DNA from: Rhodoplanes serenus
Lineage (GTDB): Bacteria > Pseudomonadota > Alphaproteobacteria > Rhizobiales > Xanthobacteraceae
Direction: 5' to 3'
DNA length: 64,000 bases
Assembly: GCA_945893145.1 (NCBI GenBank)
Contig: CAMDDZ010000007.1
Span: 1-64,000 of the forward strand
A program made the translations under genes and the position numbers. This document shows positions 288-15,604 of this stretch, piece by piece. Each line of letters starts with the position of its first letter. The stretch's first letter is position 1. The notes beneath the pieces were generated by a model. That model was not told where the DNA came from. It saw nothing but the letters and a program-made list of their open reading frames with translations, and did no database searches.

Positions 288-881
288 CTACAGAATAATG
301 CTCGGATTGCGGATGCACTGATCGCAATCGATCAGGTTTACCTGTTTCGCCACGATCTCCCAGCGGCTGCCATTCTGCGCGACGCGATGGCCAGCCCAGC
401 CCGAGAGCACGCGGGTCTCGTCGCCCCAGAACTCGCTGATCAGGAAGTTCGACCGCAGCATCCGGACCGTATCCACATCGGTCTTGAACACTTCGACGTT
501 GGTGATCAGCCGCACGGTGCGCGAGGCCGGCGCCTGCGACCAGGCGAAACCGGTACGCAGCCGGTAGATGCGGTCCTCCAGGCGGCGGCGGTCGTCGAAC
601 ATCACGGCGATCTCGCGGCGCGGATCGCCCGCATTCGGCGTGCCCGGCACCCAATAGATGCACTCTGGCGCATAGAGCTTGATCCAGTCCTCGTAGCGGA
701 GCTGGTCAAGGAGGCGCGCCTCGCGCTCGATCAACTGGCGGAAGCTGTCGCGGATCGCAGGGTCGGCGATGGCAAGCTCATCGTGCTGCCAGTCGGTGAA
801 GTTGGCGACCAACTCGCCGTAGAGCGCATCGCTGACATAGTGCGAGGTGCGCGACGGGTCGCGTACAGCAGGCGCGTTCAT
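288..881 (-). CDS. Aromatic-ring-hydroxylating dioxygenase, beta (small) subunit
   Basis: This 197-residue protein matches the NTF2-like small subunit of Rieske non-haem iron oxygenases (benzoate/anthranilate dioxygenase type). It should pair with the alpha subunit encoded immediately upstream in an alpha3-beta3 type oxygenase. Typical features are the N-terminal helical stretch with EREARLLD, the segment around YAPECIYWVPG, and the C-terminal strands ending in a Q-V-N-L pattern. The start at 881 lies 2 nt beyond the alpha stop codon, which argues for translational coupling. A longer in-frame start at 938 would run into the alpha gene and is less likely. No ferredoxin or reductase gene follows, because the operon ends here. 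Beta subunits are mainly structural, so substrate cannot be inferred from it. Confidence 0.88.
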   Translation of the reverse strand: MNAPAVRDPSRTSHYVSDALYGELVANFTDWQHDELAIADPAIRDSFRQLIEREARLLDQLRYEDWIKLYAPECIYWVPGTPNAGDPRREIAVMFDDRRRLEDRIYRLRTGFAWSQAPASRTVRLITNVEVFKTDVDTVRMLRSNFLISEFWGDETRVLSGWAGHRVAQNGSRWEIVAKQVNLIDCDQCIRNPSIIL

Positions 882-883
882 GC

Positions 884-2266
884 TCAGGGCTCCCGCTGCA
901 CGGCAAGGTTCGGCCGCGCCTTCATCAGACGCTTCCATTCCTTAAAGTGCTCGCGCATGAAGGCCTCGTCGGTGGCGGGCGCCGTGATCGAGCCGTCCGG
1001 ATGGGTCTTAGTGCGGCCGGGAATTCCCAGCCCACGGTGCATGTAGACCCACTCGTCCTCGATCGCCATCAGCCCGCGCTGGATCTGCTCGAAGTTGGCG
1101 ATGTCGTCGACCTCGCCGAAGTTCGGGAAGCCCTCCTGCGTGCGCATGCGCAACGCGTTGATGTCGTTGACGGCCTCTTCGCCAATGTCGCCGTTGGCGT
1201 CAACGATCATGGTGCCGTACCAGATCGCATTGGTCTCGCCGACGCTGACCGGCTCGAACACCTGGATGTGGTTGCCGAGCAGCGAGAAATTCGGGAACAC
1301 GTTGATGTTGACCGGCTGCGATCCGGCGAGATCGAGCAGCGACAGCGCGCGGTCGCCGAACTTCTGGCGGAACTTCTCCTCGTAATGCTCCATGCCGGGA
1401 TGCGCTGACTCCAGCGCCCAGAGTCCGCCCGGCCGTGCTTCGAGGTTCGGCCGCTTGTCCTTCAGGTGATTGCCGTGCCCTGTGTATTTCATATACATCG
1501 CGAGACTGTCGGGCGAGTTGCGGTAATAGGCCATGCCCTTGGCGTTGTCGCCCGCGAAGCGGTTCTCGGTCTCCAAGATCGAGCGATGCGAATAGATCAC
1601 GTGATAGCCGTCGCACGAATTGTCGTAGGCGAGCTTCCAGTTGCCTTTGTACTTGAACCGATTGGCCTCGCAGACCACGACCTTGCCGCCGGGATTACGG
1701 TCGAGCCATTCGTCGATGTACTTCGCGATCGGGCCGAGATGGTCGGTCAGCGGCAGCGCATCCATGTTGAGCGTGCCGAAGATGAAGCCGCGGTAGGATT
1801 CGAGCCGCGGCACTTGCGCGACATTGTATTTCGGATCGCGCAGATCAGTGGCGTAGCCATCCGGCCACGGCACGCCGCGCAGTTTGCCGGTGTTGAGGAA
1901 GTTCCAGCCGTGGTAGGGGCACTGGAACGACTTGGTGTTACCCTTGTCCCAGCGGCAAAGCGTGGTGCCGCGATGCGTGCAGCGATTGTACAGCGCCCGC
2001 ACCTTTCCATTCATGTCGCGCACGATGATGAGCGGGCGTAAGCCCAGCCGGCGCGTGATGAAATCGTTGTCGTTCGGGATTTCGCTTTCGTGCGCCAGAT
2101 ACGTCCAGGTGCCGCCGAAGATATGCGTCATCTCGGCTTCGAAGATCGCCGGATCGGTGTAGATCAGCCGGTGCGCGCGATCCTCCTGCACCAGTTCGTC
2201 CCAATCGTAGAGCGCGGTGCCGCCGAGCCTGGTCGGCGGCGCATTGATCTTTTCCAGGATCGTCAT
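884..2266 (-). CDS. Rieske aromatic-ring-hydroxylating dioxygenase, alpha (catalytic) subunit
   Basis: This 460-residue protein is the catalytic large subunit that would dihydroxylate an aromatic ring using O2 and electrons from a reductase. The Rieske 2Fe-2S ligands are visible as C96-x-H98 and C116-x2-H119. The mononuclear iron site is D219-x2-H222-x4-H227, where D219 is the Asp that bridges to the Rieske centre. The third iron ligand is probably an Asp near residues 387-388. Length is normal for the family. It starts 10 nt after the glutamine-synthetase-like gene and is followed by beta after 2 nt. The ligase-plus-oxygenase order recalls aniline dioxygenase operons, but benzoate-, anthranilate- or salicylate-type substrates remain possible. 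No reductase gene lies nearby. Confidence 0.93.
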   Translation of the reverse strand: MTILEKINAPPTRLGGTALYDWDELVQEDRAHRLIYTDPAIFEAEMTHIFGGTWTYLAHESEIPNDNDFITRRLGLRPLIIVRDMNGKVRALYNRCTHRGTTLCRWDKGNTKSFQCPYHGWNFLNTGKLRGVPWPDGYATDLRDPKYNVAQVPRLESYRGFIFGTLNMDALPLTDHLGPIAKYIDEWLDRNPGGKVVVCEANRFKYKGNWKLAYDNSCDGYHVIYSHRSILETENRFAGDNAKGMAYYRNSPDSLAMYMKYTGHGNHLKDKRPNLEARPGGLWALESAHPGMEHYEEKFRQKFGDRALSLLDLAGSQPVNINVFPNFSLLGNHIQVFEPVSVGETNAIWYGTMIVDANGDIGEEAVNDINALRMRTQEGFPNFGEVDDIANFEQIQRGLMAIEDEWVYMHRGLGIPGRTKTHPDGSITAPATDEAFMREHFKEWKRLMKARPNLAVQREP

Positions 2267-2276
2267 GGTGCGCTCC

Positions 2277-3761
2277 CTAGAAGAAGTCGAAGTATTCGTT
2301 CTGCTCCCACTCGGTCGGCTCGTCGCTTGCGGCGGCGCCTTCCTGCGAGCGCAGATAGCGGCCAGCTTCGTTGCGCTTGAGCTTCACGAAGTAGTCGATG
2401 AACGTATCCCCGAGCTCGCGGCGGAACAACGGTTCCTTGTCCAGCGCATCGAGCGCCTCCGGCAGGTTTTTCGGCAGCATCGGGCGCTCGGCCGCATAGG
2501 GCTCGTCGTCGGCCGGCTGCAACGGCAGCTTCTGCTCGATGCCGGAGAGGCCTGCGAGCATCTGCGACAGGATATAGAGGTAAGGATTGGCGGCAGGCTC
2601 GCCGACACGGTTTTCCAGCCGTGTCGCCGGATCGCCCACGCCGCCCAGCACGCGGATCATGGCGCCGCGATGGTCGTAGCCCCAGGTGGCGCGGTCGGGC
2701 GCGAGCGAGTTGGCGCGAAAGCGCCGGTAGCCGTTGATGGTCGGCGTTGAGAATGCCGAGGCCGGCACGGCGTGTTGGAGCAAGCCCGCGAGGTAAGTAC
2801 GGCCGAGCGGCGAGAGCACGTCGCCATCGCGCGCCGGGGCGAAGAGGTTGGCGCCCTTCTTGGTATCGACCAGCGACTGGTGCAGATGCCACCCGCTGGC
2901 GTAATAGCCCCTGAGTGCCGGACGGCACATGAAGGTCGCGAACAATCCCATGCGGCGGCAGATCTGCCGCGTCGCGGTGCGGAACAGCAGCACGTTGTCG
3001 GCGGCTTCCAGCGCATCGCGCGGCGCGAACGTGCACTCGACCTGGCCCGGGCCCCATTCGCTTTCGATCGAGCGCAGCGGCAGCTTGAGCTTTTCGTAGG
3101 CGTCGCCGAGCGCGTCGAACGCCGGCTGCATCATGTCCATGTAGGATTCGGAATAATAGTGATAGCCGGGCTCCATCGGCCAGGTCTTGATGGCACGGCC
3201 GCGCGTGCCCGGCACGCCGACGTGTTCCAGCGTGAGGTGCTCTTCGGCGACGCGCAGCAAATACCATTCGATCTCGGCGCCGACGACGAAGCCGTAGCCT
3301 TTCTCCGCCAGCCGCCGCACGCCCTTGCGTAACAGCTGGCGTGGCGCGAAATGGAACGGCACGCCGCTGCTGAAATATTCGTCGCACAGCATCCAGCCTA
3401 CGCCCGGCGCCCAGGGCAGCACACGAAACGTCGAGGGATCGGGTACCGCGGTAAGTGTCGGCGAACCAGTCATCTCGTCGAGACCCATGCCGCCGCCGCG
3501 GGTGAACGACGCGAAGGTGCGGGCGCCCGCGGAATCGAGTGTCGAGGCGGCGACACCGATGTTGAAGCCGTTGGTCAGCGCGCCGTTGAGCGCCGGGATC
3601 GTCAGCGTCTTGGCGCGCGAATAGCCGTGCGGATCGGCCCAGGCGAGACGCACGTAGCGCAGCTTTTCCTTCTCGACCCGCCGCTTAACCTCGGCGGCCT
3701 GGCGCCGCTGTTCGTCGGTCCAGAGACCGTGGCGTTTGATGAAGGGTGTCGGGGAAGGCAT
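2277..3761 (-). CDS. Glutamine-synthetase-like ligase (possible gamma-glutamylamide synthetase)
   Basis: This 494-residue protein belongs to the glutamine synthetase superfamily, whose members use ATP to join the gamma-carboxyl of glutamate to ammonia or an amine. The C-terminal catalytic domain has the expected order. A glutamate/ATP-site stretch (ESEWGPGQVE) is followed by an ATFMCRP motif, then an ASGWHLHQSL segment corresponding to the metal/ATP-binding GSGxHxH motif. I chose the start at 3761 because the family-like N-terminus begins there; an in-frame start at 3815 adds only unconvincing residues. It sits 10 nt upstream of the Rieske alpha gene. In aniline and isopropylamine catabolism such ligases glutamylate the amine. 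A polyamine- or other amine-glutamylating role is also possible. It is not the housekeeping GlnA. Confidence 0.87.
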   Translation of the reverse strand: MPSPTPFIKRHGLWTDEQRRQAAEVKRRVEKEKLRYVRLAWADPHGYSRAKTLTIPALNGALTNGFNIGVAASTLDSAGARTFASFTRGGGMGLDEMTGSPTLTAVPDPSTFRVLPWAPGVGWMLCDEYFSSGVPFHFAPRQLLRKGVRRLAEKGYGFVVGAEIEWYLLRVAEEHLTLEHVGVPGTRGRAIKTWPMEPGYHYYSESYMDMMQPAFDALGDAYEKLKLPLRSIESEWGPGQVECTFAPRDALEAADNVLLFRTATRQICRRMGLFATFMCRPALRGYYASGWHLHQSLVDTKKGANLFAPARDGDVLSPLGRTYLAGLLQHAVPASAFSTPTINGYRRFRANSLAPDRATWGYDHRGAMIRVLGGVGDPATRLENRVGEPAANPYLYILSQMLAGLSGIEQKLPLQPADDEPYAAERPMLPKNLPEALDALDKEPLFRRELGDTFIDYFVKLKRNEAGRYLRSQEGAAASDEPTEWEQNEYFDFF

Positions 3762-3813
3762 GACGGCCGACGCTACGCAATGGGAGGGCAGTTTTCTAGC
3801 CGACGGCATCGGC

Positions 3814-3829
3814 ATTCAAGCTATTGAAT
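3814..3829. promoter_or_regulatory. Inverted repeat in AT-rich internal gap (candidate operator/promoter)
   Basis: A perfect 16-bp inverted repeat, ATTCAA-N4-TTGAAT, sits inside an AT-rich patch (about 3810-3845). It lies in the only sizeable gap (112 nt) of the otherwise tight six-gene run. On the minus strand it lies about 53-68 nt upstream of the ligase start, next to a TATATT-like -10 sequence. This fits a separate, regulated promoter for the ligase-oxygenase genes. The regulator is unknown and no regulator gene is adjacent. Confidence 0.4.
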
Positions 3830-3873: not shown

Positions 3874-4836
3874 TCAATCGAGATAGCCGCGCTGGCGCCA
3901 GAACCGCTCGGCTGCGGGATGCAGCGGCACGTCTTGCGGCGTGTCGGGCGCCTCGCGGCACATGCGCTCGACCGGCAGCGGCTTACCGTCCTCGCCCGGA
4001 ATGCTGCCCTTGCGCGCATCGAGGCTGGCGCAGATTTGGGTGACCAGCCGATCGGATGTTTCGGCGTGGACGAAGATCGGCCAGCCGCTGAAATCGACGG
4101 TCAGCACGTCGGCGGGAAGCTTCGGAAATGCGCTCTTGCGGATGATGGCGCGGCGTAAGCCTATCGCCTCGAGCTTGCGCACCGTCGGCTCGCTGAGCGG
4201 CAGGATGGTGGCACCGGCATCAAGCGCCTCGGCCACCCAGATGTAAGACGCTTCGTCGAAGATCGCGTCAATCTCGCCCTTCGCGAACGCCTGGAACTTG
4301 GCGCTGTCCGGCCACGGCAGCGTGCCCTCGCGTTTCGGCGTGCCGCCCCAGGATTTCATCGCGTCGAGCGAGAAACCGGCGGCCGCCAGAACCTGGTCCA
4401 GCATCATGTGCAGGCAATGATCGGGCTGACCGCGCAGGCTGACGCGCAGTGGAATGCGCCGCGCGGCGATCTCCTCAACTGTGGTCAGCCCGGTTTCCTT
4501 GCGCACCGCGAACACGAACTGGTCTTCCGAGGGGATCACCGCGATGGCGCGCAGCGGTACCGGCGCGCTGTAGGGCCCGGTGCCGCGAACGGCCATGTTC
4601 AATGCGGCGACTGGATTGATGATCGCGACATCGGCTTGCCGCGACAGCACGGCCTCGATGCTGTCGATGGTCGAATGGCTGCGCAGCCGTGTCGGCGGCA
4701 CGCTGCTCTGGCCGAACGGCGTCAGCGTCACCTCGGCCTGCGCGAAACCTTGCAGCGGCGTACCTGCCAACTCTGACGCAATCTCCAGCATGACGCGCGC
4801 GCGCGTGGTGTTGGGATTGACCGGCATCAACGGCAT
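3874..4836 (-). CDS. TAXI/NMT1-like solute-binding protein without signal peptide
   Basis: This 320-residue protein resembles the TAXI (TRAP-associated extracytoplasmic immunogenic) family of periplasmic binding proteins. It shows ordered features such as a long segment with DVAIINPVAALN, a central VSLRGQPDH stretch and a C-terminal part where lobe II ends. Family members normally begin with a cleavable signal peptide, but none is visible from the start at 4836, nor from the alternative Met at 4827. Starts further upstream lie inside the preceding peptidase gene in another frame. The gene begins 5 nt after the peptidase stop. No TRAP membrane subunit lies in the window, so it may be a cytosolic ligand-binding protein or may serve an unlinked transporter. 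Substrate is unknown. Confidence 0.72.
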   Translation of the reverse strand: MPLMPVNPNTTRARVMLEIASELAGTPLQGFAQAEVTLTPFGQSSVPPTRLRSHSTIDSIEAVLSRQADVAIINPVAALNMAVRGTGPYSAPVPLRAIAVIPSEDQFVFAVRKETGLTTVEEIAARRIPLRVSLRGQPDHCLHMMLDQVLAAAGFSLDAMKSWGGTPKREGTLPWPDSAKFQAFAKGEIDAIFDEASYIWVAEALDAGATILPLSEPTVRKLEAIGLRRAIIRKSAFPKLPADVLTVDFSGWPIFVHAETSDRLVTQICASLDARKGSIPGEDGKPLPVERMCREAPDTPQDVPLHPAAERFWRQRGYLD

Positions 4837-4841
4837 GCGCG

Positions 4842-6068
4842 TCAGACCGGCAGGCGCTGGAAGTCGGTCGAGAACGAATGCATTCGCTGCGCGCCGTCGG
4901 CGGTGATCTCGATGGTCTCGGCGAACACGCAACCGGTCTTGCCGTCCTTCCATTTCGGATCGAACAGATCGATGTTGAAGGCGAACACCATGCCGGGCTC
5001 GAAGCGGTCACCGATCACCTTGATGGCTTCGCGGTCGGCCGCGATGGCGTGGTGGCGGTAGCGCGGATATTCCAACGAGGCGAGACCGTGGCCGTGGATG
5101 CCGGCCTCGCAAATCGCGAGGCCCCGCGACACGATCTCGTCCTTCACGGCCTCCATGGCGGTCGAGATGGTCTTGCCGGGGCCGAAGCCTTCGAGCCCGC
5201 GCCGGTAGGCGGCGACGCAACCCTCGTAGATTTTGAGCTGCTTCGGCTCCGGCTCGCCACCGACGCAGAACGTGCGCTCGACGTGGGTGAAATAGCCGCC
5301 GTACTTCGGGTGCATTTCGCAGATGATCAGATCGCCGCGCTCGATCGGCCGCATGGTCGGCACTCGGAAGGGATGCGGGTAGGGGTAGCGGTCGCAGGCC
5401 CAGAGAAACAGCGTCGGCTCCTCGCCGCCGTTCGCCATCATGGCGTGCATCATGCCGGCATAGACCTCGCACTCTTTGACGCCCGGCTTGGCGATGTCAC
5501 GGCACGCGCCAAGCATGAGGTCGCCGAGCCTCGCGGCCTGTCGCAGCGTGTCGATTTCCTCGGCGCTCTTGATCGAGCGGATCTTTTCCAGCATGTCGTC
5601 GAGGTTGACGATCTGGGCATGCGGCATCAGCTCGGTCATGCGCAGATGCACGTCGTGCGGCACCCAGCCATCCGGGTCGAGCGGGCCGGCATAGCCGTCC
5701 ATGCCGATGCGGGCGCCGTCGAGCTTCAATTCCTTCAGCCGGTTGGCGACCGAATCCGCCCAGGTCTTGGTGCGCGGCCGCACGTCGCTGACCCAATTCT
5801 GCGCGCTGCGCCAGCCTTCCAGGAAGGTCGGCATCTGCACGATCGAGGTGGGCTCGCCACTCGCGGGGAACACCAGCACGTTGAACTCGGCATTGCCGCC
5901 GATCGGGCTGAGATAGCGCGCGTTGGCGGTGTAGAAGTCCCACATCGTCGGCCAGCCCCACAGCACGATGGCGTCGAGCTTGCGCGCCGCCATTTCCTTG
6001 CGGACGGCCGCCCAGCGGCGATCGCGCTCCTTCAGCGACAGGCGGGGAAGTTCGAGGATGGGGCGCAT
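4842..6068 (-). CDS. M24 (Xaa-Pro peptidase/creatinase-type) family protein with altered metal site
   Basis: This 408-residue protein has the two-domain pita-bread layout of prolidases and creatinase: an N-terminal domain (about 1-165) and an M24 catalytic domain (about 170-400). The usual five metal ligands (D, D, H, E, E) align here to E251, H262, H327, N365 and E384, so at least three positions deviate. Creatinase shows that a member of this fold can hydrolyse a C-N bond without metal. Activity here may therefore be non-peptidase or use a different metal centre. It starts 33 nt after the epimerase stop and ends 5 nt before the TAXI-like gene. An amidohydrolase role toward an operon substrate is inference. 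Confidence 0.8.
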   Translation of the reverse strand: MRPILELPRLSLKERDRRWAAVRKEMAARKLDAIVLWGWPTMWDFYTANARYLSPIGGNAEFNVLVFPASGEPTSIVQMPTFLEGWRSAQNWVSDVRPRTKTWADSVANRLKELKLDGARIGMDGYAGPLDPDGWVPHDVHLRMTELMPHAQIVNLDDMLEKIRSIKSAEEIDTLRQAARLGDLMLGACRDIAKPGVKECEVYAGMMHAMMANGGEEPTLFLWACDRYPYPHPFRVPTMRPIERGDLIICEMHPKYGGYFTHVERTFCVGGEPEPKQLKIYEGCVAAYRRGLEGFGPGKTISTAMEAVKDEIVSRGLAICEAGIHGHGLASLEYPRYRHHAIAADREAIKVIGDRFEPGMVFAFNIDLFDPKWKDGKTGCVFAETIEITADGAQRMHSFSTDFQRLPV

Positions 6069-6101
6069 GAGATTCCTTCAGATTGGAATGCGGAGAACGC
6101 G

Positions 6102-7070
6102 CTATGCCGTGGCCTTCATTCGTTTCAGGCTCGTCAGATAGTCCGCGATGCCCTTTTCGAGATCGTATTCCGGCTTGTAGCCGAGTTCCTCCCGCGCGCG
6201 AGAGATGTCGTAGACGCCAGTCGCCGGATAGGGAAAGCCGTAGAAATTCAGCCCGTCGCCGATGTCCATCTGCGCCGTGGGAATATGCTTTTTGATGACG
6301 GTTGCGAAGTCCTTCAGCGTGACGCCGACGCCGGTGCCGATGTTGAACACCCGGCTTTTCAGCTTGCCAGCGAGGGTGGCGAGATAAATGCCGGCCGCCG
6401 AATCTTTGTTGTAGATGAAGTCGTCCTTGTCATCGCCGCCCTTCTCCAATTTGAAGGGAAGGCCATTGGCGGGATTTTCCACGATGCGGCTCATCACCGC
6501 CATCGGCCCGTGGCGCGCGGTCTTGCCGGGGCCATAGGTCGAGGCAAAGCGCAGCGAAACCGTGTCGAGGCCCATGTTGTCGCTGTAGTAGATGCAGATG
6601 TTCTCGCCCATGAACTTCGCCGAGTCGTAGATGCGCTTGGGCTGCTTCGGCATGTCCTCGGGGATCAGCTTCCAGGTCGGCGAGCCATATTCGCCGGTGA
6701 CGGGGCCATAGACGCCTTTGGCCGAGGTAAACACCACGCGCTGCACGTCGAGCGCGCGGGCGGCCTCCAGCACGTTGACGAGGCCCATCACGTTGACCTG
6801 AACGCTGAGCGCTGGATTGGACGCCGACACCGCGCCGACGAACGCGGCCGCATGCACCACATGCGTGACCTTGTTCTTCTTGATGGCTTGCAGGATGCGG
6901 GGCATGTCGAGAATGTCGCCCTGCTCGAAGTCGATCTTGTCGAGAATGTCGCCAACCAGGCTGTCGTCGCGGTGGCGCGCAAAGATGACCGGCCGGTGGC
7001 CTTCCTTGACGAACTTGCGGCTGGTTTCGGCGCCGATGACGCCCATGCCGCCGGTGATCAGGACTTTCAC
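6102..7070 (-). CDS. NAD-dependent epimerase/dehydratase (extended SDR)
   Basis: This 322-residue extended short-chain dehydrogenase opens with the nucleotide-binding glycine motif (TGGMGVIG, residues 6-13). It carries the YxxxK catalytic pair as YDSAK at about residue 170, preceded by a Ser/Thr-rich strand (VVFTSAKGVYG). Members act on sugar nucleotides or other hydroxy-ketone substrates in the cytosol. The start at 7070 is the first codon of the MKVLITGG pattern. It appears to be the first gene of the six-gene minus-strand run. Its presence beside an aromatic-amine-type oxygenase set is odd, and it may oxidise an alcohol or a diol intermediate. The exact substrate is unknown. Confidence 0.87.
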   Translation of the reverse strand: MKVLITGGMGVIGAETSRKFVKEGHRPVIFARHRDDSLVGDILDKIDFEQGDILDMPRILQAIKKNKVTHVVHAAAFVGAVSASNPALSVQVNVMGLVNVLEAARALDVQRVVFTSAKGVYGPVTGEYGSPTWKLIPEDMPKQPKRIYDSAKFMGENICIYYSDNMGLDTVSLRFASTYGPGKTARHGPMAVMSRIVENPANGLPFKLEKGGDDKDDFIYNKDSAAGIYLATLAGKLKSRVFNIGTGVGVTLKDFATVIKKHIPTAQMDIGDGLNFYGFPYPATGVYDISRAREELGYKPEYDLEKGIADYLTSLKRMKATA

Positions 7071-7162
7071 GCCGTGGCCCCCATTGGTGATCCGCCGATA
7101 GTGTTCGGCGTATCGGGGTTGTGCGCAAGCCCGGCGGCTTCTGCGCGGCCGCCCAAAAGCTT

Positions 7163-7192
7163 CGGGCCCGACGCTGGAAGGCGGCGGGCCCG
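7163..7192 (-). terminator. GC-rich hairpin downstream of L,D-transpeptidase gene
   Basis: Two copies of the self-complementary octamer CGGGCCCG (7163-7170 and 7185-7192) can pair around a 14-nt loop. On the minus strand the hairpin comes about 35 nt after the transpeptidase stop and is followed by AAGCTTTTGG, which is only a weak T-run. It may be a weak terminator, or it may belong to the promoter region of the epimerase operon. Confidence 0.3.
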
Positions 7193-7226
7193 GTCAACAA
7201 GGAAGTCAGTGAGCGAAACGGCTGGC

Positions 7227-9137
7227 TTAGCGGAACGTGCCCTGCGGGGGGCGCGCCGCGCTCGTGCGGCGAACCGGAGCAGCCGGCGTCGGGGCGCCGA
7301 ACAGTTTTTCGAAGAACGACGGCCCGCTGAACATGCTGTTCGGGGCGCGCACCGGCTTCGACGGCGTGCCTTTCACCCGTTCGATCGCGACGTCAGCCAT
7401 CTTGCGCTCCGACCCTTTGAGCATGGCAAGCATCTTGGCGTCGCGGCCGTAGATGTCGTCGAAAATCTGCAGCTCGCCGGTGCCATTCACGTAGGCGGTC
7501 TGATAGGTCAGGTGCACCGGGATGACGGTCGGGAAGTTGATGTTGACCTCGCTGCTGCCGAACATCTTGCGCAGCCGCTCGGCCGTGTAGTTCTCGTTCG
7601 GCAGCACGAGCGAGAGCAGCTTCTCGCCGTACATCGTGGGGTTCTCGACCCGCATGCAGCCGTGGCTGTAGGCGCGCTTGTCGTGCGCGAAATAGTTCTT
7701 GTCCGGCGTGTCGTGCTGGTAGACCAGGAACTTGTTCGGGAAGTTGAAGCGCATGCGGCCGAGCGCGTTGCGGTCGCCCGGCGGCTGCCAGATGCGCACG
7801 GTGCCGTCGCGCGCGGTCTCGACCTTGAGGCCGATGCGCTCCATCGCCTGCGGATCGTTGGCAAGCGCCGGCAGGTATTCGTTCTGAATGATCGACGGCG
7901 GCACGTTCCAGGTCGGATTGACGGTGATGAACTTCATCTCCGCGGTGATGATCGGCGTCGCCATGTTCGGCTTGCCGACCACGACCTTGGTGGTCCAGTA
8001 GAGCTCGCCGTCATGCATCAGCCGCAGCCGGTACTCCGGGATGTTGACCATCACGTAGTCTTTGCCGAGATCGCGCGGCACCCAGCGCCAACGTTCCATG
8101 TTGACGATGATGATGTCGGCGTCGCGGTCGCGCTTCGGGCCGTTGATGGCCTCGATGGTGGCCGCGGTGAGCTGACCGGAGGGCGCGATGCCGTGCGACT
8201 TCTGGAATTTGAGAACAGCGTCAGCAAGCGCCTTGTCAAAGTTGGTGTCGCCACTCGCTTCGAGTCCGAGCCGCTCGCGCACCAGCGGCACGCGCTCGTC
8301 GCTCATCAGCACGTCCTGGCCCTTCTTGTCCTTGGCGTATTTCAGGACGGGGCCGCTGGTAGAGATGCGGGCTGGGCCGGCGTTCTTGTTGGCGCGCGCG
8401 TCGGTGAGCTTGGCCTTTAGCGCCTTGTATGCGGGTAGCTGCGGTTGGAAGCCATCGAGCGCCGCGCGGATGTCACCGGCATTGGCGAGCTTCGCCAGCA
8501 CGTCCACCGGCTCGGGGCGGACGAGCTGTTCGTACAAGATGTCGCCCGAAACGCGTGTGTAATGGATGCGGCCGTTCAGGGCGTGGCGCGCGTAGGTCAT
8601 GATCGTGTCGGTGAAGCGCAATTCGGCGTCGGCCAGCGCATCGACATCGGCGCCCGCCCTGATTTGCGGCGCCGGGTAGTCGGCCGGATCGAGGCCGTCG
8701 GCATCGACTGACGCGAGGAACGCAATCGCGGCCTTGGCGCGATCGTTCAGCGCGCCGCCGCTGATCCACAGCGGGGCAAAGTTCCGGCTGGCGTAGAACG
8801 TCTCGAAGCCGGTGCGCTCCTTCTTGCCGCCGAGGATCTTGTCGAATTTGCCCGCCGTCATTTCCTTCAGCTTGTCGGTCAGCTGGGTATCGGGCGAAGC
8901 CGTAGTGGTAACCGGTTCCGGGGTGGGGGAGGTATTGGTCGCGGCCGGCTCGTTCACGATCGCTGCGGGGGTAGCTTCGCTGGCAGCCGGCGGCGTGGCC
9001 GTGCGCTGCGAGGCAGGCGCTATCGCATTGGTTTGCCGGGTGGATTGGGCCAGAGCAGTGCTGGAACCCGCCAGAGTGAGGGCAAACGCCACGGCTGTAC
9101 CGGTCAGCACGTGATCGAAGCGCGCGCTTCGCATCAT
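7227..9137 (-). CDS. L,D-transpeptidase, YcbB/LdtD-like
   Basis: This 636-residue envelope enzyme would make 3-3 (or attach protein to) peptidoglycan cross-links in the periplasm. A signal peptide with a hydrophobic core (VLTGTAVAFALTLAGSSTALA) starts at 9137. A GGGAG ribosome-binding site just upstream supports this start over the longer in-frame one at 9239. Then come a Thr/Pro-rich linker, the LdtD-type scaffold domain, a peptidoglycan-binding domain (around residues 270-330) and a YkuD catalytic domain. The catalytic motif is SHGCMRV with Cys494. A low-complexity Pro/Arg tail closes the protein. It stands alone between two minus-strand operons. Family members confer beta-lactam-insensitive cross-linking. 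Confidence 0.92.
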   Translation of the reverse strand: MMRSARFDHVLTGTAVAFALTLAGSSTALAQSTRQTNAIAPASQRTATPPAASEATPAAIVNEPAATNTSPTPEPVTTTASPDTQLTDKLKEMTAGKFDKILGGKKERTGFETFYASRNFAPLWISGGALNDRAKAAIAFLASVDADGLDPADYPAPQIRAGADVDALADAELRFTDTIMTYARHALNGRIHYTRVSGDILYEQLVRPEPVDVLAKLANAGDIRAALDGFQPQLPAYKALKAKLTDARANKNAGPARISTSGPVLKYAKDKKGQDVLMSDERVPLVRERLGLEASGDTNFDKALADAVLKFQKSHGIAPSGQLTAATIEAINGPKRDRDADIIIVNMERWRWVPRDLGKDYVMVNIPEYRLRLMHDGELYWTTKVVVGKPNMATPIITAEMKFITVNPTWNVPPSIIQNEYLPALANDPQAMERIGLKVETARDGTVRIWQPPGDRNALGRMRFNFPNKFLVYQHDTPDKNYFAHDKRAYSHGCMRVENPTMYGEKLLSLVLPNENYTAERLRKMFGSSEVNINFPTVIPVHLTYQTAYVNGTGELQIFDDIYGRDAKMLAMLKGSERKMADVAIERVKGTPSKPVRAPNSMFSGPSFFEKLFGAPTPAAPVRRTSAARPPQGTFR

Positions 9138-9404: not shown

Positions 9405-11492
9405 CTACTGCACCGATGGGATGATCTTCAGCGCTGGGAAAAGCTGACCGATCAGCGAGGGCGGCCAGGGGATCGCCATGAACACATCGAATGCGATCCA
9501 GATCCCTAAGATCAGGATGACCGTATAGGGAATGACCAGTGACCAGCGTTCAGGCCCCTCGAGCCGCATAAACACCACGACGAAAACGGCGACGGTTGGA
9601 ATGAGCCCGATCACCGCCATGCAGGCCATAAAGGCCAGCAGATAGCTAAAGAAGCGCGCCGCCCGCTCCAGGATGGTGCGCACCGGCAGGTGCTCGGTGT
9701 CGGAGGTGAGATCCATGTGGATCTTCTGCTCGACTTCGTGCTGTGCCTGATCCGCGAGGGCGGTAGCACTGGCCGCCGTTGGCTTGCGGCACATTTCGTT
9801 GAACAGGCTGAGCGACAGCACGGTCAGCGCAATGGTGCCGACCACGAGCGGAACGAGCTTGGCGCTGAAGTGCCACGGCACCGCCGCGATCACGAGGCTG
9901 GCAATGACCACGATGTAGAACATCGTGAACAGTTGCGACACATGGAATCTCGGCGCCTGAAAGCTTGTCAGCATCCTGCCGATGCCACCCTGCTGGCGGA
10001 CGTCGGCGATGAACGGCCGCAGCAGGCCGATGAGGGCCATTGTCAGCAGTACTGCTACCACGGGCCGCGTCAGCCAGGAAAATCCGTAGCGCTCGATCGA
10101 GATGAACATGTAGCGCTCGATGCTGTCGCCCAGCACCAGGCCGAGCACGAGCGGCGGCCGCGGCCACTTGAACTGCTTCATCACCCAGCCGAGCAGGCCG
10201 AACAGCAACAGTGCGAACAGGTCGCCCCAGTTGCGCGAGGCTTCGAACGCGCCGATGTAAACGATGCCGAGCACTGCCGGCAGGATCAGCGTGTAGCGCA
10301 GCGTGGCCAGGCGTGCGAATTGCGGGCTGAAGGCGTAGCAGGCGCCGGCGCCGAGAATGTTGGCGAGCGCCACCGACCACACCATCGTGTAGGTGATGTC
10401 GAGATTCTTGTGCAGCATGTCCGGGCCCGGCACCAGCCCGTGAATGAGGAACGCGCCGAGCAGGATTGCCATGGTGGCGCTGCCGGGAACGCCGAACGCG
10501 ATGGTCGGCACCAGCGCGCCGCCCTCTTTGGCATTGTTGGAGCTTTCGGAGGCGATCACGCCGCGCACGTCGCCCTTGCCGAAGGTCTGACTGGCGCCCT
10601 TCTCGGTCTTGAGCGCGTGGCCATAGGCGAGCCAGTCCACCACCGAGGCGCTGATGCCGGGGATCGAGCCGATGCCGCCGCCGATCCACGAGCAGCGCAT
10701 GATCAGCCACCAGTTATCGAAGCAATCCTTCACGCCCTGCCATTGGCCTTTGTAAATGTCGGCTTTGTTGACGCCCTTAGCGATGGCGACGCGGGCGATC
10801 AAAAGGTCACAGAGCTCCGGCAAGGCGAACAGGCCGAGCAGCAGCGGGGTGAGCGGCAAGCCGTCCCATAAATAAAGACTGTCGAAGGTCCAGCGCAGCG
10901 TGCCGGTCTGCGGATCGGACCCGATCATCGCGATCATGATGCCGAGGCAGCCGGCCGCAACGCCGCGCAACGGCGCGCTGCCGGACAGCACGGCCACCAT
11001 GGATATGCCCAATATGGAAAACGCGAGCAGCTCCGGTGATCCGAGATAGAGCATCACGGGCCGCAAGATCGGAATCGAGATCGCCAGCAGCATTGCGCCG
11101 AAGATCCCGCCCATCAGCGAAGACATGTAGGCCGCGCTGAGTGCGCGCCCGGCTTCGCCGCGTTTCGCCATCGGGAAGCCATCCAAGACCGTTGCCGCAG
11201 AGGCGGCACCTCCGGGCACACCAAACAAAATGGCTGGAATGGGATCGCCGGTCGCTGTGGTCGCGCCGAGACCGAGCAGCAGCGCAAAGGCGGCGTAGGG
11301 GTCCATCGCGAAGGTGAACGGCAACAGCATCGCCGTCCCGGTCAGCCCGCCGATGCCGGGCACGATGCCGAGGATCAGGCCCATCATGCAGCCGAGCGCC
11401 AGGAACCCCATCCGATGTGGTTCCATCAGCGTCAGGAAGGCTTTGCCCGCCGCCGCTGCCATGAAGGCTGCTTCTGTGCCGAAGCCTTCCAT
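9405..11492 (-). CDS. Tripartite tricarboxylate transporter permease, fused TctA-TctB
   Basis: This 695-residue membrane protein imports a carboxylate together with a TctC binding protein. Residues 1 to about 500 are a TctA large permease with the family glycine-rich signature near the N-terminus (GLILGIVPGIGGLTG) and about 10-12 hydrophobic helices. Residues about 510-690 contain further hydrophobic helices and match the small TctB (DUF1468-type) subunit. TctA is normally about 500 residues, and TctB is normally a separate gene. The upstream gene, 38 nt away on the same strand, is a TctC binding protein, so the transporter is complete in two genes. Substrate (citrate-like or aromatic carboxylate) cannot be assigned. 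Confidence 0.92.
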   Translation of the reverse strand: MEGFGTEAAFMAAAAGKAFLTLMEPHRMGFLALGCMMGLILGIVPGIGGLTGTAMLLPFTFAMDPYAAFALLLGLGATTATGDPIPAILFGVPGGAASAATVLDGFPMAKRGEAGRALSAAYMSSLMGGIFGAMLLAISIPILRPVMLYLGSPELLAFSILGISMVAVLSGSAPLRGVAAGCLGIMIAMIGSDPQTGTLRWTFDSLYLWDGLPLTPLLLGLFALPELCDLLIARVAIAKGVNKADIYKGQWQGVKDCFDNWWLIMRCSWIGGGIGSIPGISASVVDWLAYGHALKTEKGASQTFGKGDVRGVIASESSNNAKEGGALVPTIAFGVPGSATMAILLGAFLIHGLVPGPDMLHKNLDITYTMVWSVALANILGAGACYAFSPQFARLATLRYTLILPAVLGIVYIGAFEASRNWGDLFALLLFGLLGWVMKQFKWPRPPLVLGLVLGDSIERYMFISIERYGFSWLTRPVVAVLLTMALIGLLRPFIADVRQQGGIGRMLTSFQAPRFHVSQLFTMFYIVVIASLVIAAVPWHFSAKLVPLVVGTIALTVLSLSLFNEMCRKPTAASATALADQAQHEVEQKIHMDLTSDTEHLPVRTILERAARFFSYLLAFMACMAVIGLIPTVAVFVVVFMRLEGPERWSLVIPYTVILILGIWIAFDVFMAIPWPPSLIGQLFPALKIIPSVQ

Positions 11493-11530
11493 CGGTCAGG
11501 CGTCCGTTGCGTTTGCAGTCAGCACGATCG

Positions 11531-12583
11531 TCACCGCTGCGGCTTGGCGGCGAGCGCCAGCCTTGCCTTGTCCACCACTCGCGACGGAGTGGCATAGAGG
11601 TCTGTGACCAGGGTCTGCAAGTCATCGCCGGCGAGCGGCTCAACGTCGAGCTGCATCTTACTGGCTTCGCCCCGCAGGGTCTTATCGTTCATGGCTTGCA
11701 TGAATGCCTTGCGCAACGCAGCCACGCGGTCGGCCGGCACGCCAGGCGGCATGATGAAGGGCCGTCCGAACACGCCCTGGCTGAATACGAGTTCGATCAC
11801 GCGGCGATCGTCGTCGGTGCTGGCGAATTCCCCGGCGCGCGGCACGCCGCGCTTGTTCAGGTCGGCGTGCCCCTTGTTGCTAAGTTGCACAAGCACGCGA
11901 ACGGTATCCTTGGCGAACCATTCAGGATGCATCGCCTCGATGCCGGTCCAGCCGATGCCGCAGGCGCCCTGCACCTCGCTGCGGTCGATCGCCAGCGTGA
12001 TCTCGCGGCTGCCGGGATAACCGGTGACGATCTTGAAGCGCGTGCCGAGGATGTTGTTGAGGAGGAGCGGCAGATCATAGGTGGTGGCGCCTGGATTGCT
12101 GGCGCCGACGATCACTTCTTGGTTCAGCGTATCCTTGAACGTCTTCACTGGCGCGTCGGTGCGCAGATAGCAGACATAGACGTCGCTGTTGGCGCTGCCG
12201 AGATAGACAAGCTTGTTCGGATCGACACCGGCTGCCGTGTCGCCGAGCAGGGGTTGCAGCACGGCGCCGGGGAAGATCGCGCCGAGCGCAGTGCCGTCCT
12301 TCGGCGCCACGCCATAGATATAACCGGCCGCGCGGTTCGAGCCCGCGCCACTCATGTTCTGCACCACGATCGACGGATTGCCGGGAATGTAGTTGCCGAG
12401 ATGGCGTGCGAGCAGACGCGCGTAGGTGTCGTAACCGCCGCCCGCAGACGAGCCGACAATGAGGTTGATCTGGCGGCCCTTGTAGAAATGTTCGACCGAA
12501 TCCTGCGCCGCCGCGACGTTCGCGGCCCACAGCGCACAGGCGCCAGCGACGACGATCCGCCGCAAGCAACACCCGATCGACAT
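11531..12583 (-). CDS. Tripartite tricarboxylate transporter substrate-binding protein (TctC/Bug family)
   Basis: This 350-residue periplasmic binding protein starts with a clear signal peptide (hydrophobic core near residues 8-23, cleavage after AAA before QDS). It continues with the Bug-type binding-fold features INLIVGSSAGGGYD and YARLLARHLG. The start at 12583 is chosen because the signal peptide begins there; the alternative at 12628 only adds charged residues. It is 38 nt upstream of the fused TctA-TctB permease and should feed substrate to it. The upstream region (12584-12829) is shared with the divergent GST gene and contains a short CGCGGTT/AACCGCG hairpin near 12674-12690. Confidence 0.9.
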   Translation of the reverse strand: MSIGCCLRRIVVAGACALWAANVAAAQDSVEHFYKGRQINLIVGSSAGGGYDTYARLLARHLGNYIPGNPSIVVQNMSGAGSNRAAGYIYGVAPKDGTALGAIFPGAVLQPLLGDTAAGVDPNKLVYLGSANSDVYVCYLRTDAPVKTFKDTLNQEVIVGASNPGATTYDLPLLLNNILGTRFKIVTGYPGSREITLAIDRSEVQGACGIGWTGIEAMHPEWFAKDTVRVLVQLSNKGHADLNKRGVPRAGEFASTDDDRRVIELVFSQGVFGRPFIMPPGVPADRVAALRKAFMQAMNDKTLRGEASKMQLDVEPLAGDDLQTLVTDLYATPSRVVDKARLALAAKPQR

Positions 12584-12829: not shown

Positions 12830-13531
12830 ATGATCGACTTCTATGGATTGACCAGCCCGAACGTGCAGAAAATCTTCATCATGCTCGAGGAGTGCGGGCT
12901 GCCTTACAATTTCAAGCCCGTCGATGTTTGGGCGAGCGCGCAGCACAGCGCTGAATTCACGAAGCTGAATCCAAACGGCAAAATCCCGGTGATTGTCGAT
13001 CAGGACGGACCGGGCGGTAAGCCCTACACGGTGTTCGAGTCCGGCGCGATCCTGATGTACCTCGCCGAGAAGAGCGGCAAGTTCATGCCCAAGGACATGG
13101 CGAAGAAATACGACGTGATCCAGTGGCTGATGATTCAGGTCACCGGCGTCGGCCCGGCGTTCGGCAACTTTACGCATTTCAATTTGTTCGCGCCGAAGCC
13201 GGCCGATCCGTATGCGCTGGCCCGTTACCGCACCGAGATGCTCCGGCTTTACGATCTGCTCAACACGCGCCTCGGCCAGGCCAAGTATCTTGGCGGCGAC
13301 GAATACTCGATCGCCGACATGGCGACGTTCCCGTGGACGCGCCAGTATCAGGCGCAGGGCGCCAAGATCGAGGCGCTGCCGAACTTCAAGCGCTGGTTCG
13401 ACGATTTGTCGGCGCGGCCGGCGGTCAAGGCCATGATCGCCAAGCAGGCCGATATCAAGTCGAGCCGTGAAACCGCAACGGACGAGAACAAGGATCGGTT
13501 CTTCAATCGCGGCAAATACGCGCGGGCGTAA
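12830..13531 (+). CDS. Glutathione S-transferase family protein
   Basis: This 233-residue cytosolic protein has a thioredoxin-fold N-terminal domain (about 1-85) with the glutathione-site patterns NPNGKIPVI and FESGAIL, followed by an all-helical C-terminal domain. The pattern is closest to the YghU/YfcG (Nu-class/Ure2-like) group, several of which act on disulphides or peroxides. The start at 12830 has a GAGAG-type ribosome-binding site. It is monocistronic: divergent from the TctC gene and separated from the next gene by an inverted repeat. A specific substrate cannot be inferred, although some GSTs act in aromatic catabolism. Confidence 0.9.
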   Translation: MIDFYGLTSPNVQKIFIMLEECGLPYNFKPVDVWASAQHSAEFTKLNPNGKIPVIVDQDGPGGKPYTVFESGAILMYLAEKSGKFMPKDMAKKYDVIQWLMIQVTGVGPAFGNFTHFNLFAPKPADPYALARYRTEMLRLYDLLNTRLGQAKYLGGDEYSIADMATFPWTRQYQAQGAKIEALPNFKRWFDDLSARPAVKAMIAKQADIKSSRETATDENKDRFFNRGKYARA

Positions 13532-13603
13532 AGCATAATCCGCGAAATCCCATCCCGGCCTCGATCCGGGGTGGGAATCGAGGGGGCGGCGCGATAAGGC
13601 AAG

Positions 13604-13633
13604 CCATGATCCGGTCAACGAATCGGATCATGG
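13604..13633. repeat. Inverted repeat (hairpin) between GST and CMD genes
   Basis: CCATGATCCG (13604-13613) and CGGATCATGG (13624-13633) are perfect inverted arms around a 10-nt loop. The arm sequence resembles the ends of the dispersed CATGATC repeats near 18.6 and 19.3 kb. It may act as a GST-gene terminator or be a short member of that repeat family. Confidence 0.6.
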
Positions 13634-13657
13634 TTGAGCTGTCTCAGGGAGGTCGAT

Positions 13658-14293
13658 ATGAGAGCTTCTGTGTTGCGCGTCTCGCTGTGTGCGGCGTTGC
13701 TGGCCTTGGTCGTGGTCCCGGCGCAGGCGGAAGACGCTCCCGTCTCGCGGCTGCCGCTGATCTCGGACGAGCCCGCCGATCCGTTGCTCAAGCAATTGTT
13801 TGACGAGACCCGTGCGCGCGGCGGCAAGATCCTCAATCTGCATCGGACGCAGGGTCTTGCGCCCAAGCTCGCCAAGGCACGGCGCGATCTCGCCTATGCG
13901 ATCCGTTTTGAAACCAAGCTTCCGGCGGCGCTGCGCGAGATGGCGATCATCCGCACCTCGCAGATCCTCGATTCGGAATACGAGCGCAACCAGCACATTC
14001 CGCTCGCCAAAGCCTGCGGCGTGACCGATGCGCAACTCGGCGCGTTGGAGGCCTGGGAGAGCAGCAACCTGTTCGACGACAAGGCGCGCTCGATGTTGCG
14101 CTACGTTGAAGCGATGATCCTTGCCGGGGGCGAGATCGATGACGAGATATTTGCCGCGTTGTCGAAGCAGTTCAGCCCGCAGGAGATCGTCGAGATCACG
14201 ATCATCGTCGGCAATTATTTCGCAACCGGCCTGCTGACCAAGGCGCTGAAGGTCAAGGTCGATCCGCCGGGCGCCGTGCCTGGCAAGTGCTGA
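13658..14293 (+). CDS. Exported carboxymuconolactone decarboxylase-like (CMD/AhpD-fold) protein
   Basis: This 211-residue protein has a helical CMD-like core with the pattern RTSQILDSEYERNQH at about residues 100-115, typical of gamma-carboxymuconolactone decarboxylase relatives. The start at 13658 follows an AGGGAGG ribosome-binding site. It begins a signal peptide ending at AQA before EDAP, so the protein is predicted to be exported, which is unusual for CMD proteins. An in-frame TTG start at 13634 would only precede the signal peptide. The redox Cys pair of AhpD is absent. It is followed 76 nt later by a TctC binding protein and may act on a compound bound in the periplasm. Function is unknown. 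Confidence 0.8.
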   Translation: MRASVLRVSLCAALLALVVVPAQAEDAPVSRLPLISDEPADPLLKQLFDETRARGGKILNLHRTQGLAPKLAKARRDLAYAIRFETKLPAALREMAIIRTSQILDSEYERNQHIPLAKACGVTDAQLGALEAWESSNLFDDKARSMLRYVEAMILAGGEIDDEIFAALSKQFSPQEIVEITIIVGNYFATGLLTKALKVKVDPPGAVPGKC

Positions 14294-14369
14294 ATTGGAA
14301 AGTGCTGACGGTGTAGTGGCGGACAGGCCAGCGCCGGGTGCATGATCCTCCTCTTGAGGGGTGGGTGAC

Positions 14370-15338
14370 ATGCGATTGCGGCTCGCGCTTTTCTGCCTCA
14401 CGCTTTCAGCGTTTGCGGCGCAAGCCCAAGACGCCTATCCGTCCCGCCAAATCTCGCTGATCGCACCTTATGCGGCCGGCGGCTCGATCGATCTGATCGC
14501 GCGCCTGCTCGCCGAAGGGCTCACCGCGCGGCTCGGCCAGACCGTCGTGGTTGACAATAAGCCGGGCGGCAATGGCGTGATTGGCATTCGCGAGGCGATC
14601 AAGGCGCCGCCCGACGGCTACACGCTGCTGATGGGTTCGGTCGGCGCCAACGTGACGCCCGCAGCCGTGCAAAAGGAATATCCGTTCGATCCGCTGCGTG
14701 ACTACGTGCCGGTTTCGGTGGTGGCCGAGTGGTCGGCAATCCTGGTGGTGAAGAAGGACTTGCCGGTCTCGACGCTCGCCGAATTCGTCGCCTATGCCAA
14801 GGCGCGGCCGGGTGCGCTCAACTTCGGCACCACCGGTTACGGCAGCTTTGCGCACCTGATCTCGGAAGTGTTCATGCAGCAGACCGGCATCCGGATGCAG
14901 CATGTGCAGTACAAGGGCGGCTCGCAGGCCACCGCCGACCTGCTGGCGGGCACCATCGACGCCCACATGATGAGCTCGGCGGTCGGCGCCGGTCAGGCCG
15001 AGAACCCGAGGCTCAAGATGCTGGCGGTCGCGAGCCGGCAGCGGCTGAAGCTGTTGCCCAACGTGCCGACCATGGCGGAGGCCGGCGTGCCCGGCGTTGA
15101 GCAGACCTCATGGCTTGCGGTGTTCGCGCCGCCGGGAGTGCCGGCGGCGATCCGGGAGCGGCTGGCGCGCGAACTGGTCGCGATCGCGAACGATCCGGCC
15201 TATCAGGCGAAATTCCGTCGCACCGGCTTTGAGCCGGTGGGGCTCGATGCGGCAGCGACCGACAAGTTTTATCGCGACGAGATCACGCGCTGGACAGCGC
15301 TGATCAAGGAGCGGGGACTGGCGGAAAACGCGAAGTAG
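14370..15338 (+). CDS. TctC/Bug family substrate-binding protein
   Basis: This 322-residue periplasmic protein has a signal peptide (MRLRLALF... to AQA before QDAYPSRQ) and the Bug hallmarks ISLIAPYAAGGSIDL, PGGNGVIG and PDGYTLLMGS. The ATG at 14370 has a GAGGGG ribosome-binding site, so the upstream GTG at 14361 is not needed. It follows the exported CMD-like gene on the same strand and has no permease next to it. It may therefore use a TctAB permease elsewhere, for example the fused one at 9405-11492. The ligand is probably a carboxylate. Confidence 0.9.
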   Translation: MRLRLALFCLTLSAFAAQAQDAYPSRQISLIAPYAAGGSIDLIARLLAEGLTARLGQTVVVDNKPGGNGVIGIREAIKAPPDGYTLLMGSVGANVTPAAVQKEYPFDPLRDYVPVSVVAEWSAILVVKKDLPVSTLAEFVAYAKARPGALNFGTTGYGSFAHLISEVFMQQTGIRMQHVQYKGGSQATADLLAGTIDAHMMSSAVGAGQAENPRLKMLAVASRQRLKLLPNVPTMAEAGVPGVEQTSWLAVFAPPGVPAAIRERLARELVAIANDPAYQAKFRRTGFEPVGLDAAATDKFYRDEITRWTALIKERGLAENAK

Positions 15339-15365
15339 ATTTTCGGCACCGCCAGTCGGCGGCTG

Positions 15366-15599
15366 CTACTTCCCGAGCATCTTCCGCAGTGCGTCGTTGA
15401 TGCGGTCCTGCCAGCCGGGGCCACCGGCCTGGAAGTGATCCAGCACGTCGCGGTCGATGCGCAACGACACCATCTCGCGGACGCCGGGGACGGCGGGCTT
15501 CGGCGGCGGCAGATCGGCGGGCTTGGTGGTGGCCTTCTTGAATGCCGCCTCGGCGGCATCGCGCGAGGTCATGGGCCTTCGGATTCGGTCATCAGCCAT
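15366..15599 (-). CDS. BrnA-type antitoxin (DUF4415-like), no toxin partner
   Basis: This 77-residue protein ends in the BrnA-family DNA-binding pattern VSLRIDRDVLDHF, a short glycine linker, then a WQDRINDALRKML helix. The N-terminal half is Lys/Pro-rich and probably disordered. BrnA normally neutralises the BrnT ribonuclease and represses the brnTA operon. Here no BrnT-like (DUF497) frame is seen on either side: upstream is the LLM oxidoreductase and downstream the convergent tctC gene. It starts 5 nt after the oxidoreductase stop and so may simply be co-transcribed with it. An orphan antitoxin or a plain ribbon-helix-helix-like regulator are both possible. Confidence 0.75.
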   Translation of the reverse strand: MADDRIRRPMTSRDAAEAAFKKATTKPADLPPPKPAVPGVREMVSLRIDRDVLDHFQAGGPGWQDRINDALRKMLGK

Positions 15600-15604
15600 G
15601 GGAG

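Follow-up and report, generated by a model that had tools for sequence, protein, structure and literature searches.

A glutamine synthetase-like ligase paired with a two-subunit Rieske oxygenase in Rhodoplanes serenus: a predicted route for glutamylation-dependent oxidation of aromatic amines

Introduction

Aniline dioxygenases of the AtdA/TdnQ type reportedly rely on a glutamine synthetase (GS)-like ligase that makes gamma-glutamylanilide before ring dioxygenation, and are said to work together with an amidotransferase-like hydrolase. In this report, we analyzed a related three-gene module—a GS-superfamily ligase and the alpha and beta subunits of a Rieske oxygenase—in the alphaproteobacterium Rhodoplanes serenus (assembly GCA_945893145.1, contig CAMDDZ010000007.1). 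The stretch under study, hereafter the window, consists of the first 64 kb of that contig (C7), in a genome of 5.5 Mb and 161 contigs. Relatives with known activity have been studied in Pseudomonas sp. JS3066, where the ligase NpaA1 (structures 8wwu, 8wwv and 8x6z) glutamylates 1-naphthylamine and anilines, and the oxygenase oxidizes its substrate only after glutamylation; more broadly, glutamyl-organic-amine synthetases (GoaS) accept isopropylamine and putrescine in addition to anilines (PMC11335346). An original prediction, made from the letters of the window, had proposed that its module handles an aromatic amine or amide by the same logic.

Results

The module is compact, as the original prediction had described, and open reading frame (ORF) coordinates and profile searches with Pfam and NCBIfam agree on its composition. 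The ligase gene (2277..3761, minus strand) encodes 494 aa when started at 3761, the start chosen in that prediction, although its ORF stays open to 3815 (2277-3815, minus strand), and its product matches PF00120 (Gln-synt_C; 1.8e-75). A gap of 10 nt separates it from the gene for the alpha subunit (884..2266, minus strand; 460 aa), which matches PF00355 (Rieske; 1.9e-20) and PF00848 (Ring_hydroxyl_A; 4.5e-14). The ORF for the beta subunit (288..938, minus strand; PF00866, Ring_hydroxyl_B, 3.1e-33) overlaps the alpha gene and gives 216 aa from its first ATG, but a likelier start at 881 gives 197 aa; the protein is 42% identical to the beta subunit of Delftia aniline dioxygenase. When compared with the NCBIfam equivalog models PuuA, type I/III GS, BenA, AntA and HcaE, none of the three proteins reached a cut-off.

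The ligase is very probably a GS-superfamily gamma-glutamyl-amine ligase of the GoaS type, as predicted from its closest structural match and its active-site residues. Its nearest solved structure is the NpaA1 chain (1.5e-149 over 489 residues, with 46% identity over 95% of the query), which together with the PF00120 domain indicates the catalytic GS fold, one of the features by which GoaS is defined (PMC11335346), and its best plasmid matches are aniline ligases of the TdnQ/DcaQ type (48% identity). The GS ammonia-site Asp50 and flap Glu327 are replaced by Ala and Leu, respectively, and are also lost in NpaA1 and the TdnQ-type enzymes. The amine-binding Glu232 and Glu234 are kept, as in NpaA1, and the GoaS motif-15 loop (NpaA1 Val68-Met81) is free of gaps in the common alignment. 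Among the tunnel residues, Phe86 and Trp235 are conserved, and Phe75 and Met81 of NpaA1 are replaced by Leu and Arg; in addition, NpaA1 Val201 corresponds to Tyr. Position 81, which lines the tunnel, is Met in NpaA1 and Trp in AtdA1 (PMC11335346). The arginine found here (codon at 3519..3521, minus strand) is invariant, occurring in each of the 28 clade sequences that cover this position, and no other sequence of the alignment has it. In the ligase tree, the window clade (support 100/100) lies within the group of ligases linked to Rieske alpha/beta genes (95/98), with Escherichia coli PuuA as outgroup; a PuuA identity, i.e., gamma-glutamylputrescine synthetase, is further rejected by a score of 206.9 bits against a cut-off of 650.

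The oxygenase is equally complete. In the alpha subunit, the Rieske CxH/CxxH motifs, the bridging Asp and the His/His/Asp ligands of the mononuclear iron are all intact and, with the beta subunit present, the pair has the features of a two-subunit Rieske ring-hydroxylating oxygenase. All GS-linked alphas, including that of the window, share an iron-site signature, DGYHxxxSH ... DDxxNF, the second half of which occurs in none of the eight alphas not linked to GS. The best 21 plasmid records for alpha (39-51% identity) each also carry a related ligase, and lower records do not exceed 36%. The alpha tree—built without the single-subunit enzyme of locus L009, since rooting on it gave a branch of 10 units and a false root—groups all GS-linked alphas, aniline type included, in one clade (98/99) and leaves outside it the alphas of the benzoate, indoleacetate and phenylpropionate types, together with three others encoded by this genome. 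BenA and AntA identities are rejected by scores of 235.9 bits against a cut-off of 781 and 177.9 against 672, respectively, and the BenA-type alpha of locus L102 lies outside the GS-linked clade. These trees, which set the ligase apart from PuuA and the alpha apart from benzoate dioxygenase, agree with the kinship originally proposed. Within the GS-linked alphas, the window clade (100/100) groups with Nostoc and actinobacteria (98/93) and not inside the AtdA3/TdnA clade; the approximately unbiased (AU) test weakly rejects an exclusive grouping of the window clade and the aniline clade (p 0.034). Unlike their alphas, the actinobacterial ligases cluster with those of the aniline sets (100/98), and this discrepancy suggests that some swapping of ligase and alpha partners may have occurred.

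That ligase and oxygenase form a unit is also indicated by their conserved linkage. By scanning genome contigs and relatives for ligases with 53-81% identity to that of the window, we gathered a single clade of 39 loci, mostly from uncultured Alphaproteobacteria with a few members labelled Betaproteobacteria. Genes in the loci examined were called by codon usage, since antisense ORFs in the GC-rich DNA confounded calling by longest ORF; because some genes in loci of lower GC content (L007, L047 and L048) escaped the codon-usage caller, linkage was taken from homology searches. The alpha gene adjoins the ligase gene wherever the contig reaches far enough, beta is present in 36 of the 39 loci, and ligase, alpha and beta occur together in all 36 clade loci with enough sequence. 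This recurrence puts the grouping beyond chance and establishes the linkage elsewhere that the original prediction presupposed. Of 385 genomes sampled independently and evenly across the class, 8 encode the ligase, this one included, and six of the others, in which longer stretches were examined, have the same three-gene core. Distances between ligases also correlate with distances between alphas, both across 30 clade loci (Mantel r 0.80) and across 42 two-subunit loci (r 0.92), with 0 of 2000 permutations as high in either case. Chance adjacency of the two proteins is ruled out by this correlated divergence combined with the conserved linkage.

The clade is further characterized by what its loci lack. 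Since the contig ends 287 nt beyond beta, the absence of an amidotransferase and a reductase cannot be read from the window by itself, and for the reductase it rests on the relatives, which we searched with queries for amidotransferase, several reductase types and ferredoxins. A linked class I amidotransferase (AtdA2) was found in 0 of 39 clade loci, whereas the same query detected one in 9 of 13 other two-subunit loci; for a linked FNR-type reductase (AtdA5), the figures were 0 of 39 and 12 of 13. Thirty-two clade loci show at least 2 kb past beta, and in the closest relative (L119/L032) beta is directly followed by convergent genes, the first of which encodes a member of a solute-binding-protein family. 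The lone weak reductase match in the clade (33%, L144) lies 5 kb from the ligase, and a weak ferredoxin query (HcaC) matched only the Rieske domains of the alphas and a VanA-like protein in L045. The absence of both genes claimed in the original prediction thus holds across the clade. With none linked, the reductase must act in trans, and a family search of the genome yielded three candidates, namely an FNR-type enzyme on C20, adjoining another Rieske oxygenase, and, on C17 and C23, two of the Reductase_C type. A module without the amidotransferase is workable, because 1-naphthylamine oxidation persists when the amidotransferase NpaA2 is deleted (PMC11335346).

The genes upstream of the ligase do not appear to belong to the module. 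They encode, all on the minus strand, a protein with a TAXI/NMT1-like solute-binding domain (3874..4827; PF16868, 1.5e-8; TIGR02122, 8.7e-9), an M24 (creatinase/prolidase-like) protein (4842..6068; PF00557) and an NAD-dependent epimerase/dehydratase (6102..7070; PF01370). On visual inspection from the probable start, the first lacks an obvious signal peptide, which is odd for a periplasmic binding protein. The epimerase-M24 pair is kept across the genus, with synteny in four genomes (G001, G004, G006 and G010), its homologues (70-92% identity for M24 and 84-86% for the epimerase) lying away from GS-Rieske modules; module and M24 are on different contigs in G009 and 3.2 Mb apart in G004. In the 39 related loci, the module is accompanied by none of these three genes, and the order epimerase-M24-TAXI-GS-Rieske is consequently seen in this genome only. 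The suggestion that these proteins stand in for the missing amidotransferase and reductase is therefore abandoned. Elsewhere in the clade, neighbors change from locus to locus and include a class II aldolase (eight loci), a UbiD-type hydroxyaryl-acid decarboxylase, an aromatic flavin hydroxylase, a PcaB-like cycloisomerase, a short-chain dehydrogenase/reductase, an amidohydrolase and solute-binding proteins. In L140, the UbiD-family decarboxylase gene (5619-7199) is directly upstream of the ligase gene and a second alpha/beta Rieske pair (14755-16595) lies ~4 kb downstream, with a similar order in L139 and L141. Further along the window (9405-12565), a tripartite tricarboxylate transporter with fused TctA and TctB (695 aa) is encoded beside a TctC-like binding protein.

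Other arrangements of GS and Rieske genes came to light during this analysis. Plasmids of Rhizobium sp. BG4 (L096) and Shinella sp. H4-D48 (L097) carry GS-alpha-beta genes with a PDR/VanB-type reductase, an uncharacterized arrangement, and in L097 a gamma-glutamyl hydrolase is encoded two genes beyond. A second GS-Rieske type, for which we found no characterized example, has a single-subunit Rieske protein of another family directly upstream of a GoaS ligase (~34-49% identical to that of the window). It occurs in 28 loci: L111 in the same genome (G000:C51; Rieske 5454-6770, GS 6777-8261) and L009, L019, L021-L025, L028, L029, L031, L064, L065, L067-L070, L073, L080, L081, L084, L086, L109, L110, L115, L116, L118 and L120. 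On the Methylobacterium nodulans plasmid (L009, 5848-10431), this type is accompanied by a ferredoxin and an FAD reductase, and a nitroreductase gene beside one for a DUF4863 protein (13105-14386) hints at a nitro- or aminobenzoate route. Should this second type operate in the same way, the principle would also cover oxygenases of another architecture.

Discussion

The main conclusion of this study is that the module probably glutamylates an amine, most likely an aromatic one, after which the alpha/beta oxygenase would dihydroxylate the ring of the product. Activation with glutamate followed by oxygenation is well supported by homology, considering the kinship with NpaA1, the linkage and co-divergence of the two genes, and the single clade formed by GS-linked alphas; that the reactions occur in the same order as in the relatives is accordingly very likely. 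In the predicted mechanism, the ligase would use ATP and L-glutamate to form gamma-glutamyl phosphate and then transfer the glutamyl moiety to an organic amine at its amino group. The resulting gamma-glutamyl amide would be the substrate of the oxygenase, which would dihydroxylate the ring at the nitrogen-bearing carbon and its neighbor, using electrons supplied by a reductase encoded elsewhere in the genome, and the unstable adduct would release the glutamyl amide to leave a catechol.

The nature of the amine is less certain. The original prediction, that the operon handles an aromatic amine by the logic of aniline oxidation, stands in that both genes are homologous to the aniline/naphthylamine pair and have kept their linkage; aniline itself is not indicated, and an aromatic amine is a likely substrate. 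It is possible, but tentative, that this amine bears an acid group, as in compounds resembling aminobenzoate or aminophthalate. This is suggested by Arg81, which sits at the entrance to a tunnel that is hydrophobic elsewhere, and the aromatic-acid genes near several clade members fit this idea without proving it. Several observations weigh against glutamylation-dependent oxidation of an aromatic amine. The ligase is only 46-48% identical to enzymes with proven activity; with Phe75 and Met81 replaced by Leu and Arg, aniline itself may be a poor substrate. In addition, no closely linked reductase or ferredoxin gene was found in the 39 loci, and the neighboring genes are too variable to fix a pathway.

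These observations leave room for other explanations. The same succession of glutamylation and oxygenation might act on an aliphatic or aryl-alkyl amine, with hydroxylation of the carbon beside the amide nitrogen or of the ring of an arylalkylamide, which would be in keeping with the activity of GoaS on isopropylamine and putrescine (PMC11335346) and with tunnel residues unlike those of the aniline enzymes. We consider this rather unlikely, since ligase and alpha are both nearest to the aniline/naphthylamine sets rather than to PuuA, ring dioxygenases have this alpha/beta architecture, and genes for aromatic degradation lie near several clade members. Alternatively, the pair might be biosynthetic or detoxifying—glutamylation shielding the amine and the oxygenase tailoring a metabolite, while the amine would not support growth—and it is true that the module also occurs on a Nostoc plasmid and that no ring-cleavage gene adjoins it in the window. 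However, the UbiD-type decarboxylase, PcaB-like cycloisomerase, aromatic flavin hydroxylase and tripartite tricarboxylate-type transporters near clade modules point to catabolism, and an intradiol dioxygenase is encoded elsewhere in the same genome, which makes such a role improbable.

The least credible alternative is that a polyamine- or ethanolamine-type ligase happens to lie beside an unrelated benzoate-type oxygenase. The weak matches to the gamma-glutamylputrescine synthetase and BenA models that might be cited in its favor score far under their cut-offs, and the idea is already contradicted by linkage in every informative relative, by correlated divergence and by trees in which both window proteins group with other GS-Rieske pairs.

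If oxidation of a glutamylated aromatic amine is confirmed, there would be consequences for how this chemistry is viewed. The demonstrated examples of a glutamate tag followed by oxygenation originate from polluted sites and from mobile plasmids. In uncultured Alphaproteobacteria, we see this protein pair as a conserved unit that is phylogenetically separate and has neither amidotransferase nor reductase. On confirmation, the aniline pathway would represent one branch of a more general natural route for handling the nitrogen and carbon of aromatic amines, and the Arg81 ligases would offer biocatalysis a new substrate range. More speculatively, glutamylation-dependent Rieske oxygenation could be a broad and old strategy rather than a specialty of aniline plasmids, in which case the window clade might be a stripped chromosomal branch that borrows its reductase and oxidizes acid-bearing aromatic amines, natural or humic, in soil and marine bacteria that are so far uncultured. 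The chemistry itself is known. In the open-access literature, we found no publication on the window clade, and to that extent its existence, reduced gene content and distribution are undescribed.

Comparison with known systems defines the place of this module. The nearest alpha outside the clade (51% identity) belongs to a beta-alpha-GS cassette on a plasmid of Nostoc sp. UHCC 0926 (L093, 6125-9805), in which, likewise, no linked amidotransferase or reductase was found within 6-7 kb; it differs by its inverted gene order, a ligase only 45-46% identical, and a residue other than arginine at position 81. The actinobacterial alpha-beta-amidotransferase-GS-ferredoxin-reductase cassettes of Dietzia (L095) and Rhodococcus gordoniae (L094) also combine GS with an alpha/beta Rieske oxygenase (alpha 48-49% identical), but differ in gene order and in their linked ferredoxin, reductase and catechol genes. 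In the NpaA1A2A3A4A5 set for 1-naphthylamine (L007; PMC11335346), the ligase shares its catalytic and amine-anchoring glutamates with that of the window, although this set, unlike the window clade, is carried by a mobile IncP plasmid and has a linked amidotransferase and reductase. The AtdA1A2A3A4A5/TdnQ sets (e.g., Delftia pNB8c, L008) likewise have the gene for a GS-like ligase ahead of those for a two-subunit Rieske oxygenase, the window ligase being 48% and its alpha and beta 42% identical to theirs. These sets have an amidotransferase between ligase and alpha, a reductase after beta, and a LysR regulator, and the first two are missing from the window clade, which is a sister branch rather than nested within AtdA (AU p 0.034). 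In view of these absences and of its separate branch in the alpha tree, the module falls outside the AtdA set, yet it would work like the aniline system.

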